This document shows positions 1-29,165 of a stretch of DNA of 33,756 nt, piece by piece. This stretch comes from Exilispira sp. (lineage in GTDB: Bacteria > Spirochaetota > JAAYUW01). A program made the translations under genes and the position numbers. The stretch's first letter is position 1. Every line of letters begins with the position of its first letter. The notes beneath the pieces were generated by a model. It did no database searches and had not been told where the DNA came from. It saw only the letters and a list, made by a program, of their open reading frames with translations. The DNA is taken from NCBI GenBank assembly GCA_012517545.1, contig JAAYUW010000136.1, positions 1 through 33,756 of the forward strand, in the 5' to 3' direction.

Positions 1-238
1 ACAAAGAAAAATTGCAAAGAGCCTATTTTCGATATTCGCTTCTTTGTTTTGGTTAAGTGACAAAAAGAAAAAAGAAAAGCAAAAAAATAAACAATCCTAT
101 TTATCATTTATTTATATAAGGATTTATGCATTTCTTTTTTTAAAATAAGCATACAATTGCTGGATGAACAAGTATTTATATGCTATGCTATACATTTTTT
201 CCTTTAATGTTAAAAAGTGTGTATTAACCGGAAGTAAC
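1..238 (+). repeat. Dispersed intergenic repeat R, copy R1 (may extend left of the window)
   Basis: Aligns by eye with 13666-13899 along its length (acaaagaa.aatt..c...gagcctatttt..atattcgcttctt ... aaaataagcat.ca.ttgctggatgaacaagtatttat ... attaaccg.aagta). Confidence 0.85.
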
Positions 239-12244: not shown

Positions 12245-13000
12245 ATGGCTGAAATTCATGTAAAGAGTATAAATGATATTGTTTCAAAAGTAGATGAAGA
12301 TATTGATAGCAAAAAGATCAAAAATACAGTAGTTCAGGTTATTCGTTTTCTTATTGATAAATACGAATTTGCTCTTGATGTTCTCGATGTTAAAGAAATA
12401 AAAGAGATTGAAAAGATAAGACATCTTCCAAATTCCCTTCCTTTTATTATTGGACTGCTCAATCTTCGGGGAGACATTATACCTATTTTTGATCTTACAA
12501 AAAAATTAGAGCTTGAAAATATATCGGTAGAGAAGTTAGCCAGTATTGGTGAAAAAAGTGGTAAATTAGAGGCTTTTGAAAATGAAAAGGTTGAATTCGT
12601 AGAATCGTCAAATAAAAGTAATATAAACGATAAGGTAGAAGAGTTTAATATTGAGAGTTTTTCCAATGAAAAAGATTCTCTTGATGTAAATTCTTATATT
12701 TCAACTTCAGATACTGATCAGCACATGAAAAAAGAATTAGATCAAGACGATAAAACCAATATAGAGCCACAAATCTTTGAGGATTTTTCAGATACTCGAA
12801 GTATTATTGTTTGCAAGGTTGAAAATGAACTTTTTGGGATTTTGGTTGACAGGATTATTAAAGTTCAGTATTTATCATCTGATGAATATGAAAAATCACC
12901 TCAATTATTCGATTTTATAGGTAACAATTTTGTTAAGGGTTTTGCAAAAATAGAAGGGAAGATTATAGTTGTCCTGGCTCTGAAGAATTTATTTTATTAA
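12245..13000 (+). CDS. CheW-like chemotaxis coupling protein with ~100-aa internal insertion
   Basis: 'FLIDKYEFALDVLDVKEIKEIEKIRHLPNSLPFIIGLLNLRGDIIPIFDLTKKL' and 'SIIVCKVENELFGILVDRIIKVQYLSSDE...FVKGFAKIEGKIIVVLALKNL' are the two halves of a CheW domain. Confidence 0.85.
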   Translation: MAEIHVKSINDIVSKVDEDIDSKKIKNTVVQVIRFLIDKYEFALDVLDVKEIKEIEKIRHLPNSLPFIIGLLNLRGDIIPIFDLTKKLELENISVEKLASIGEKSGKLEAFENEKVEFVESSNKSNINDKVEEFNIESFSNEKDSLDVNSYISTSDTDQHMKKELDQDDKTNIEPQIFEDFSDTRSIIVCKVENELFGILVDRIIKVQYLSSDEYEKSPQLFDFIGNNFVKGFAKIEGKIIVVLALKNLFY

Positions 13001-13094
13001 TCCCCTGAAAAGTTAAAAATATCAAAGGTTATCCTTACAATATTCAAACATATTTAAACGAAATTAAATAAAACAATAGATAGAAGAGGTGAGA

Positions 13095-13610
13095 ATGAAA
13101 ATTATTCAATATAAAGATAAGAAACCAGTCATAAAAGAAGATGTTTACGGGTTTGATTCCACAGTAATAATAGGGGATGTTTATATTGCATCACATGTAT
13201 TTTTACTTCCAAATATTGTTATCAGGGGTGATTTAAATAAAATTTTAATCGATGAGTATACAAATATTCAGGATGGAACAGTTATACATACCGACTCCAA
13301 TTTTTCTACAACTATTGGCAAGCGAGTTACATGTGGACATAATGTGATATTGCATGGGTGTATAGTTGATGATGATGTGCTTCTTGGCATGGGTTGTATT
13401 GTACTTAACGGTGCACATATCCCTTCAAAAGTTATAATAGCTGCAGGTTCACTCATTGGACAAAATAAGACACTTGAATCCGGCTATTTATATGCCGGGA
13501 TACCAGCCAGGAAGGTACGAGCTCTGGTTGATCAGGATTATAAATATATTGAACAAGCAAATAGAATATATATCGACTTAAAGCAAAATTATCAAAATGG
13601 CTCTATTTAA
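13095..13610 (+). CDS. Gamma-carbonic anhydrase family / hexapeptide-repeat protein
   Basis: 'IGDVYIASHVFLLPNIVIRGDLNKILIDEYTNIQDGTVIHTD...TIGKRVTCGHNVILHGCIVDDDVLLGMGCIVLNGA'; GTG 13089 is a less likely start. Confidence 0.9.
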   Translation: MKIIQYKDKKPVIKEDVYGFDSTVIIGDVYIASHVFLLPNIVIRGDLNKILIDEYTNIQDGTVIHTDSNFSTTIGKRVTCGHNVILHGCIVDDDVLLGMGCIVLNGAHIPSKVIIAAGSLIGQNKTLESGYLYAGIPARKVRALVDQDYKYIEQANRIYIDLKQNYQNGSI

Positions 13611-13665
13611 GGTTCATCCAGCAAATTATCTTCTAACTCTTCGTTAGTTTTTAAGACCTGGCTAT
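13611..13665 (-). repeat. Intergenic S element, copy S2
   Basis: Reverse complement ...aaaactaacgaagagttagaagataatttgctggatgaacc matches S1 at 29104-29165. Confidence 0.75.
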
Positions 13666-13899
13666 ACAAAGAAGAATTACCAGGAGCCTATTTTTTATAT
13701 TCGCTTCTTTTTTAGAAGTAAGTTATAAAAAGAAAAGTAAAAGATAAACAATCATATTTATTATTATTGTTATAAGGATTTATACATTTCTTTTCTTAAA
13801 ATAAGCATGCACTTGCTGGATGAACAAGTATTTATCTACTATACTATACTATATAAATATTGCCTTAATATTAAAAAGCACACATTAACCGCAAGTACC
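13666..13899 (+). repeat. Dispersed intergenic repeat R, copy R2
   Basis: Aligns with 1-238; contains TTGCTGGATGAAC at 13813-13825. Confidence 0.85.
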
Positions 13900-13952
13900 T
13901 TATTTACTCATATAATTTTGATAATTTTAAGGTTAAAAAGTTATTTAAGCTG

Positions 13953-15374
13953 ATGAAATCAAAGGAAAAATTATTATCAAACTTGAATATCGCTTTTATC
14001 AATCCACCAATTCTTGATTTTGCTATGTACAATTTATTTGCAGAGCCCCTCGGGATATTAAAATCGATCTATGCCTGTAAAAAATTTGGAGCCAATGTTA
14101 TATACATAGATTCGCTTGATAGAACATTTGATAAAACCTTTTTTGAAAAAGGTTCAATTTCTCCAACATTTAAAGATAATGGAAGTGGAAAATACTGGAA
14201 AAAACTTGTTGATAAACCCGAACAGCTTCAATTTGTCGATAGAGAATTCTATAGATTTGGATTGGATTTCGAAAAAGTGAGTAACCTCATTAAAATAAAA
14301 ATGTCAGAACCAGATTTTATAGTAATATCAATAGTTTTTACATATCATTATCTTGCAGCGAGAAGATTACTTGAAATTCTTAAAAATGATTTTCCTGGAA
14401 CAAAAGTAATTTTATCAGGTATTTATCCGACTATCTATTTTCAACACGCTAAAACTCTTGGATTTGATGAGGTATTTACTGGAAATGTGGTTTCATTTGT
14501 ATCGGAACTTTTAAAAAGATACTCTTTAACTGATATCGATACCCTCCATTGTAGTGATATTATATTAAAAGCCAATAAACAAGATGAGTATTATAATGAT
14601 GAATCAGATTCATTTTCAGATTTTTTGCCAGATTGGGATGCAGTAAAAGATCTTCCATATGGCATTATTCGATTAACAAAAGGTTGTCCATTTTCATGTC
14701 CTTATTGTGCTTCAAATATAATAAGTGGAAAGTTTGAAAAACTATCTATAGGTTATTCTCTTAGCCAGATGCGTTATTTTGCTAAAAGAAAAATATACAA
14801 TATAGCATTTTATGATGACGCTTTACTCATAGATAAAGAACATTTTATCACCTTCATGGAAAAAGCTCTTGAAATATCGACAAATTTCAGATTTTATTTA
14901 CCAAATGCAATACATATTGCAAGAGCAGATGAGGATATTTTTAAATACCTTAAATATTTTCGAATGATTAGATTTGGACTTGAATCTTTGAATATGGATG
15001 ACTTTAAATATGGAAATAAGTTTAATCAGGATGAATTAAATCATCTTATAAATAATATTGAAAGGTTTAATATTGATAAAAGATCTATTTCTTTCTATAT
15101 ATTATTTGGTTTACCCGGGCAAGACTTTACAGAAGTTGAAAGAACGGTAAAAGGTGCGTTGAAACTTGGTATAAGTCCAAGATTTGCTGAATTTTCGCCC
15201 ATTCCCGGGACAAAAATATTTGATCTTGCAAAAGAAGAAAGCTTAATGAGCAATTTAAGGTTAAATATAGAAGAACCTCTATATCAAAATCCCTGCATAT
15301 ATCCATATTATGCTACAGAGTTTACGATAGAACGTATGAAATACTTAAGAAGTCTTGTTTATGATAAAAAATAG
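13953..15374 (+). CDS. B12-binding-domain radical SAM protein
   Basis: 'IAFINPPILDFAMYNLFAEPLGILKSIYACKKFGANVIYIDS' N-terminal B12-binding-like domain; 'IRLTKGCPFSCPYCASNIISGKFEKLS' CxxxCxxC. Confidence 0.85.
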   Translation: MKSKEKLLSNLNIAFINPPILDFAMYNLFAEPLGILKSIYACKKFGANVIYIDSLDRTFDKTFFEKGSISPTFKDNGSGKYWKKLVDKPEQLQFVDREFYRFGLDFEKVSNLIKIKMSEPDFIVISIVFTYHYLAARRLLEILKNDFPGTKVILSGIYPTIYFQHAKTLGFDEVFTGNVVSFVSELLKRYSLTDIDTLHCSDIILKANKQDEYYNDESDSFSDFLPDWDAVKDLPYGIIRLTKGCPFSCPYCASNIISGKFEKLSIGYSLSQMRYFAKRKIYNIAFYDDALLIDKEHFITFMEKALEISTNFRFYLPNAIHIARADEDIFKYLKYFRMIRFGLESLNMDDFKYGNKFNQDELNHLINNIERFNIDKRSISFYILFGLPGQDFTEVERTVKGALKLGISPRFAEFSPIPGTKIFDLAKEESLMSNLRLNIEEPLYQNPCIYPYYATEFTIERMKYLRSLVYDKK

Positions 15375-15382
15375 GAACTTCC

Positions 15383-15465
15383 CTTTAATGGGTACTTTAT
15401 AATATTAAAAGAATAAAGTTATAGCATAATATACTCGTTTATACAGCAAGTACATACTTATTTAC
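15383..15465 (-). repeat. Dispersed intergenic repeat R, copy R4 (degenerate)
   Basis: ttaatgggtactttataatattaa...tatagcataatatactcgtttatacagcaagtacatacttattta aligns with the reverse complement of R1/R2. Confidence 0.6.
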
Positions 15466-15532
15466 AGCAGTAAAAAGTCGAAAATCAGGGAAAATACTTT
15501 TATCAATACAGTCCAAAGTACAAAAGTCACAA

Positions 15533-15568
15533 CTTTGGGAATAGAGTCCAAATTTGCTGGATGAACCT
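15533..15568 (+). repeat. Intergenic S element, copy S4
   Basis: ctttgggaatagagtccaaaTTTGCTGGATGAACC; exact 13-mer at 15554-15566. Confidence 0.65.
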
Positions 15569-20629: not shown

Positions 20630-20667
20630 GTATTATTATTTAGAGCTGTTTTTAAAGAAACTTATTA

Positions 20668-21570
20668 TCAATAATCTTCATCATCATAGTCTTCCTCATC
20701 ATCCTCGTCTTCCTCATAATCATCATCATCTTTATCTTCATCCTCATAATCATCATCATCTTCTTCTTCATCCTCATAATCACTTTCTTTATCAAAATAA
20801 CCTTTTTTTAGATCTTCATTTTCTTCTTCATCATATTCTTCTTGATATTCCTCATCATCAGAGTCTTTAAATGGCAAAGTTTCCTTTTCTATCTTATAAA
20901 AACCATCTGCGATTCCAAGTGCAGCATTGATCGCATCTTCAATATCAAGATAGTTGATTTTCTCATCTGCTTTTCCAGTATTATAAAAGCCACAGGCAAG
21001 ATTTATCGAAGGTATATGAAAAGTATCAGATAAATAATCAAGATCTGGAATATCAAGTATTCTCTCCTTAAGCTGAAATTCTTTGATTATTGATTTATAT
21101 TTAGATGGTAATTTGATAGTAGTTGTATAGTAATCTCGTCCCTCATTATAAAGGAAAATTATGAGTTTTACATCATCAAGATCGATATCGAGATTATCAT
21201 CAATAAAGATATCCAACCCGCTTTTCATCTCAAAGTCTCTACTGTTTTCTTTTTTTGAGTCATAGCTGGCTCTAAGCCATAAAACAGGATAACCCTGTTG
21301 ATACAAATAATTTGTCAAATACATTGAGGTTCTAGTATCAGCATTAAAAGGTCCATTTTTTGTCATCAGGTCATCTTCTTTATGAACAAGTTCAAACTCT
21401 CTATTTTTAGTATTATCAAAATAGCCAATAAAAAGAATATTTCTAATATCATTATCGAAAAACCAATAATTCATCTCATCTGTGATGTCTGGTTCACCAA
21501 AAAACTCCAGTATTTCATCAAAATCAAGATTGATAAAATTATCGATTTGATTTCTATCTACCGATATCAT
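20668..21570 (-). CDS. Hypothetical protein with ~50-residue Asp/Glu/Tyr-rich C-terminal tail
   Basis: ATG at 21570 preceded by ggagg; long ORF with normal composition until the low-complexity tail '...DYEDEEEDDDDYEDEDKDDDDYEEDEDDEEDYDDEDY'. Confidence 0.75.
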   Translation of the reverse strand: MISVDRNQIDNFINLDFDEILEFFGEPDITDEMNYWFFDNDIRNILFIGYFDNTKNREFELVHKEDDLMTKNGPFNADTRTSMYLTNYLYQQGYPVLWLRASYDSKKENSRDFEMKSGLDIFIDDNLDIDLDDVKLIIFLYNEGRDYYTTTIKLPSKYKSIIKEFQLKERILDIPDLDYLSDTFHIPSINLACGFYNTGKADEKINYLDIEDAINAALGIADGFYKIEKETLPFKDSDDEEYQEEYDEEENEDLKKGYFDKESDYEDEEEDDDDYEDEDKDDDDYEEDEDDEEDYDDEDY

Positions 21571-21929
21571 TTGCTGCCTCCACAATCTATTTTTTAGTAT
21601 TTTTACGATATTTTTCAAGTCATTTTTATAAATTCGGTGATTTTTTAAAAGATTTATAATAATTATATAATAATTCAAAAATTTTTCAAAATAATCAAAT
21701 TTTCTAAAAATTTAAATAGCTATTGATGAACTGTCTGGCTTAAAAAAAGTGCAGTTAAAATTTTATGTAATTTTTGTATTTTAAATGACTATTTATAGTT
21801 GAATATTAAAGGGAGTAATTTTATGAAAAGTCGAACATTTACACCTTATATTGCTAATTCCTTGTTAGATAACTTTTAGGTTATATGAAAGCCACTTAAT
21901 ACATTTTGTCAAAGATCTTTTGCATTTTA

Positions 21930-27165: not shown

Positions 27166-27500
27166 ATCAATTTCTCCTTTAAGAATATTTTGCTATTGAT
27201 AATTTTGCCTTTAAGAAAATAGTACTTTTTTAATTTTTATCTACATCTTAAATAAAAGATAATATTGGATTAAAATATTGACTTTTAAAAGCAAAGCCAT
27301 TTATGTGTATAAAAAAAATAAACTATTGTTTTCAAAATTTGGATAGATTAAATTAATATACTCTTAACAATCTTATTTACTTTTTTCAACTTATATGTTA
27401 TTAAATTGACAGCATACAAGTGTTCAATATTTTTTATTTCACCTTTGATATATATTCAACAGGATTATTATTTTCATTTTTTATATATTTTATTACATTT

Positions 27501-27604
27501 CGGTTAATGTGCACTTTTCATAATTAAAGTAATATTTGTATAGCACAGTATGTACCATTCATCCAGCAAGTGTATGCTTAATTAAAAAAAAATGCATAAA
27601 TCAT
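27501..27604 (-). repeat. Dispersed intergenic repeat R, copy R3
   Basis: Reverse complement gatttatgcattt...aagcatacacttgctggatgaat...gctatacaaatattactttaatta..aaaagtgcacattaaccg aligns with R1/R2. Confidence 0.8.
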
Positions 27605-27639
27605 TAAATCAATAAGTTTGCATGGCAAAACCATACAAA

Positions 27640-27668
27640 CTTGAGAATAGCAGTTTGCCGGATAAAAC
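27640..27668 (+). repeat. Intergenic S element, copy S5 (degenerate)
   Basis: cttgagaatagca (also at 32684-32696) followed by ttgccggataaaac, a degenerate 13-mer. Confidence 0.5.
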
Positions 27669-27747
27669 TATATTTTACTGTACTAAAATAGCATGAAGTA
27701 TTCTTTCCTTTATAAGTAAGTCTTTTAACATCGGGTATAATTTTAGA

Positions 27748-28908: not shown

Positions 28909-29103
28909 TATTGAAATAATCGGGAGATAATCCTTTAAAATAATTATTCTTAAGGGTAAATTTGTTTTTTTATATATTCTTAAGATTTATGCTAATTTTT
29001 TAACTTCAAAGAAATAAACTTATAACATAAATATATATAATAATATGTAGCATTACGATGTCTGGCTTTTAAGGAGCGATAAGAGACTCTTCGCATTTTT
29101 TCT

Positions 29104-29165
29104 TTTTATAGCTTAGCTATACAAACTAAAGAAGAGCTAGAAGATTAATTTGCTAGATGATCCTA
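29104..29165 (+). repeat. Intergenic S element, copy S1
   Basis: gctatacaaactaaagaagagctagaagattaatttgctagatgatcc aligns with the reverse complement of 13611-13665. Confidence 0.7.

Follow-up and report, generated by a model that had tools for sequence, protein, structure and literature searches.

Prokaryotic MITEs are AT-rich, intergenic elements of <500 bp that carry terminal inverted repeats (TIRs) of 4-30 bp and give a stable transcript hairpin; the direct repeats at their flanks decay with age, and many of their copies are truncated or variant in size (PMC10969869). Among the described families, QMITE1 and QMITE2 of Coxiella burnetii and Chunjie of Geobacter uraniireducens number 45, 78 and 38 copies, the last with partials in addition, and measure about 180-400 bp (PMC10969869). 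Here we analyzed a window of 33,756 nucleotides (the whole stretch of DNA under study), in which a 13-mer is repeated in inverted orientation in the spacer between a gamma-CA gene and a radical SAM gene. We are highly confident that this repeat belongs to a prokaryotic MITE family that is apparently undescribed, ordinary in kind and presumably mobilized in trans by a transposase.

The element in the gamma-CA/radical SAM spacer

The two 13-mers, 13612-13624 (GTTCATCCAGCAA) and 13813-13825 (TTGCTGGATGAAC), are perfect reverse complements at a spacing of 188 nt, just as the original prediction had described them, and all of its other coordinates were also correct, including those of the degenerate and exact copies at 15437/15554 and 27557/27655. 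The pair is real and above chance: allowing up to two mismatches, the 13-mer has 8 matches within the window against 0.72 expected, and with up to one mismatch it occurs 43 times genome-wide against 0 for the reversed control. A 16-nt end motif (A/B-type) likewise gave, at up to two mismatches, 93 matches genome-wide and 1 in the reversed-pattern control. The original prediction had regarded the locus as a composite in which an R element and an S element abut, but this was wrong; we find a single element, 13611-13899, with three end motifs and an 8-bp duplication around the whole. Two neighbouring elements were rejected because R and S are both enclosed by one target-site duplication (TSD). 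Since full-length copies align end to end, S forms the left part of one 289-bp element and R the rest of it, and the 13-mer pair consists of its left end (A) and an internal inverted copy of that end (B). The features are as follows.

13603-13610, no strand: left 8-bp TSD copy, CTATTTAA; 6 of 8 bases match 13900-13907; includes the TAA stop of the upstream gene
13611-13899, plus strand: full-length MITE of subfamily 1, 289 bp, end A to end C; 87% to the family consensus end to end
13611-13626, plus strand: left terminal repeat A, GGTTCATCCAGCAAAT; matches the family end motif (29.9 bits)
13811-13826, minus strand: internal inverted copy B of the end, holding the second 13-mer; alternative right end in some relatives, with no A..B TSD here
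13884-13899, minus strand: right terminal repeat C, GGTACTTGCGGTTAAT on the minus strand (24.9 bits)
13900-13907, no strand: right 8-bp TSD copy, TTATTTAC; 6 of 8 bases match 13603-13610

The element starts with GGTTCATCCGGCAAAT (A) and ends with ...ATTAACCGGAAGTACC (C), forming an imperfect terminal inverted repeat in which A (GGTTCATCCGGCAAAT) and C (GGTACTTCCGGTTAAT) are identical at 12 of 16 positions; in an element of subfamily D, on contig C119, the terminal repeats are identical over 16. The full-length copies on contigs C65, C24 and C12 (the last at 40129) align from GGTTCATCC... through ...GGAAGTACC. The family has no coding capacity: none of 32 elements contains an ORF of 100 aa or more. 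Four other copies lie in the window.

1-238, plus strand: copy cut by the contig end, consensus positions 56-289; 86% to the consensus and 98.3% identical to the copy on contig C49
15374-15567, minus strand: shorter copy of 194 bp, with A at 15567, C at 15374 and B at 15437-15449; TSD AAAAAATA/TGAAAATA, 6 of 8
about 27494-27670, minus strand: degenerate copy with A at 27653-27668, B at 27556-27571 and an eroded C at about 27494-27515; 79% to the consensus over 27498-27615
about 28980-29163, minus strand: degenerate copy with a recognizable A end (29148-29163) and an eroded right end; 77% over consensus positions 1-82

The radical SAM gene (13953-15374) ends in a TAG stop (15372-15374), of which two bases come from the duplicated target and the last is the first base of the MITE at 15374-15567; the inserted element completes this stop codon. 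The window is contig C52, which starts at the identical point within a MITE copy as contig C49 does, and its first 86 bases are identical to the last 86 of contig C125. These shared contig ends inside a MITE copy indicate that the assembly breaks at the repeat. Elsewhere in the window, a repeat scan found a low-complexity TCATCATCTTC-type array of 13 overlapping copies at 20659-20869, which, if translated from the minus strand, would give an acidic stretch in the ORF 20668-21678.

Copies, target-site duplications and empty sites

We searched the genome (2.36 Mb in 197 contigs, 94% complete) and called the element ends and boundaries by motif scans that assume the family. Confinement of the copies to the window would have refuted the original prediction, but they are found genome-wide, with 47 matches to 13611-13899 and 50 to the consensus, these being rough counts from a capped scoring in which some copies give two matches. 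Their sizes range from about 95 to 430 bp. The forms of about 100 bp (C48, C134:4833, C30 and C141) have the middle deleted and both ends kept, and others (C147, C125, C124 and C161) have extra or inverted interior pieces. In C147:27033-27325, C125:35093-35416 and C28:191-440, the left part of the interior (CTCTTCGTTAGTTT...CATACAAAG) runs opposite to its orientation in the consensus, as if recombination had occurred between the inner inverted arms. The copies are dispersed and mainly intergenic; of the 32 elements, only 2 extend into a called ORF of 100 aa or more, by 12 and 60 bp, and not one is contained in such an ORF.

Both outer ends could be called in 29 elements; in these, the 8-mers immediately outside A and C show a 73% match, compared with 47% when they were re-paired among elements (z 8.4), and none of 10,000 shuffles reached the observed value. 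The signal is specific to this length (z 2.6 for 7-mers and 0.7 for 9-mers), and an earlier set of 26 elements had given z 6.7 for an 8-bp TSD. Perfect duplications flank four A..C elements, namely those on C125 (CATTTTTT), C180 (TAATTTTA), C161 (ATAAAAAA) and C171 (ATATTCTA), and the target sites are 92% A+T. Only 2-5 of the 8 bases match in 12 of the 29 elements, and because so many TSDs have decayed, most of the copies are old.

Empty sites were found in two congeners, G001 and G002. The genes flanking the element at 13611-13899 are 342 bp apart here and adjoin or overlap in both congeners, and the spacer between the radical SAM and aminotransferase genes, which holds the element at 15374-15567, is 283 bp here versus 15-17 bp there; both spacers are empty in the congeners at a DNA identity of about 70%, at which the base-exact junction is not recoverable. 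The two loci illustrate how MITEs of this kind can widen the spacers between genes. A survey of 59 other genomes from the phylum, the congeners among them, did not detect the family and gave just short AT-rich chance-like matches; in this sample the family is restricted to one species. Its arrival or expansion in this species thus came after the split from the sampled congeners. The copies at the starts of C52 and C49 are 98.3% identical and have different right flanks, so that some movement may be recent, contig-end assembly effects also being possible. Mobility is shown historically alone, by the TSDs and the empty sites.

The competing explanations and the internal end B

The original prediction had listed a structured RNA/DNA element beside the MITE, and a structured non-coding RNA or cis-regulatory element that is kept by function, with the 13-mers as its closing stem, might account for the minus-strand transcript of 13611-13899 folding better than shuffles (z -4.7; -2.6 for the plus strand) with the A-B pair as the outer stem. 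We consider this highly improbable. The A-B pairing dominates the minus-strand fold, a similar fold is expected of any element with inverted ends, and the stem is what the TIR alone gives. Across the copies, where the original prediction had proposed looking for covariation, A-B identity is 0.859 within the same copy and 0.849 between different copies (p 0.25), with no compensatory change. The lack of covariation between A and B within single copies speaks against a conserved structured RNA. Moreover, an Rfam search gave no match, promoter- and terminator-like sites are not above shuffles, and the element is missing at the orthologous site in the congeners. It is also highly improbable that the family is a modular extragenic repeat such as BOX, REP or ERIC, which would have been spread with no target duplication by recombination or a RAYT-type enzyme; the modules of C147, C125 and C28, shuffled by inversion and internal deletion, would fit such a repeat, but an 8-bp TSD this sharp at A and C, and ends that are conserved around otherwise divergent interiors, mean end-to-end transposition. 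The MITE or other mobile repeat that had been proposed was the right choice, as the family has TIRs, 8-bp TSDs and dispersed copies, and its orthologous sites in the congeners are empty.

Within the MITE family, B repeats the left end in inverted orientation about 65-75 bp inside C, and as an apparently usable spare end it is the sole unusual feature of the family. Two accounts of B, both compatible with a MITE, can be considered. A possible account, to which we give slightly less than an even chance, is a three-ended family in which one transposase uses either of the nested right ends B and C, 65-75 bp apart; the choice of end, in addition to internal deletion, would then produce the long and short forms. 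The other, a lesser though real possibility, is that an A..B MITE gained the second end C by nesting or chance and that B in the present A..C elements is a relic. B can be called in 14 A..C elements, and in every one of them the A..B interval lacks a TSD (z -1.4), as expected if B is a relic. On the other hand, three elements without C end at B and have TSDs: C134:11765-11930 (8/8, GAAAAATA/GAAAAATA), C119 (7/8) and C94 (6/8). The latter two belong to subfamily D, which ends at B, whereas C134:11765-11930 belongs to subfamily 2, an A..C subfamily, and shares 91% identity with the A..C element C104:804, so that both right ends appear to be used within one subfamily. From these three elements, of which C134:11765-11930 alone has a perfect TSD, B appears able to serve as an alternative right end, and it is a possible case of end choice in transposition.

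The anatomy of the MITE suggests a mechanism in which a DDE-type transposase would act in trans, cutting or copying the element and joining it to an AT-rich target with an 8-bp stagger that would leave the 8-bp duplications. B would be a second right end, most elements probably having moved with C; because the B-ended elements also carry TSDs, the transposase appears to have accepted B or C. This enzyme would now be lost, decayed or missing from the incomplete assembly.

The transposase and comparison with known systems

Transposases of the ISL3, IS6, IS1595, IS4/5 and IS1 families were not found in the genome (197 contigs, 94% complete), and none with matching ends was found in the six families searched, these five and IS256. 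IS256 is present as decayed remnants alone, on C192 and C100, with terminal repeats of the AGTGTCAAGTAATTTGTGTAAAA type and not GGTTCATCC; IS256 as the partner, or as the source of the MITE, was rejected because the ends of both remnants differ from the MITE ends. The C192 remnant (12500-14000) is a decayed IS256-type transposase with 6 stops in the match and AGTGTCAAGTAATTTGTGTAAAA-type terminal repeats, and was not found in the two congeners; part of the second copy, on C100, shares about 200 bp with it at 80%. A short motif pair inside the remnant, at C192:12812, has no TSD by eye. The minus strand of C100 also has an IS3-type transposase (240-1270 of the stretch examined) in two OrfA/OrfB-like frames, as judged by eye from the translation. 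The ORFs between facing ends 0.8-3 kb apart gave Pfam assignments to TPR, phosphotransacetylase, LpxA-like, dehydrogenase and other proteins, and no transposase. Plasmid, phage and viral collections contained no relative of the MITE, a search of the literature with the end sequence returned unrelated matches alone, and in the collections searched the family matched none already described; such a match would have refuted the original prediction, which had recognized no family. The parent transposase may be lost, decayed, unassembled or of another family.

A known process explains the repeated 13-mers, and the family now has defined boundaries, a TSD length of 8 bp and a census. The ISL3, IS6 and IS1595 families, and some IS256 and IS1 elements, have GG...CC ends and an 8-bp TSD, and the MITE has GG-type ends and an 8-bp TSD in common with them. 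It is also similar to QMITE1, QMITE2 and Chunjie in its dozens of copies, element length, wide size range and degenerate copies, a likeness of description with no shared identity claimed. All the traits listed for prokaryotic MITEs (PMC10969869) are shared by the present family, which differs from them in that no autonomous relative was found and in that an internal inverted end motif is conserved across its subfamilies.
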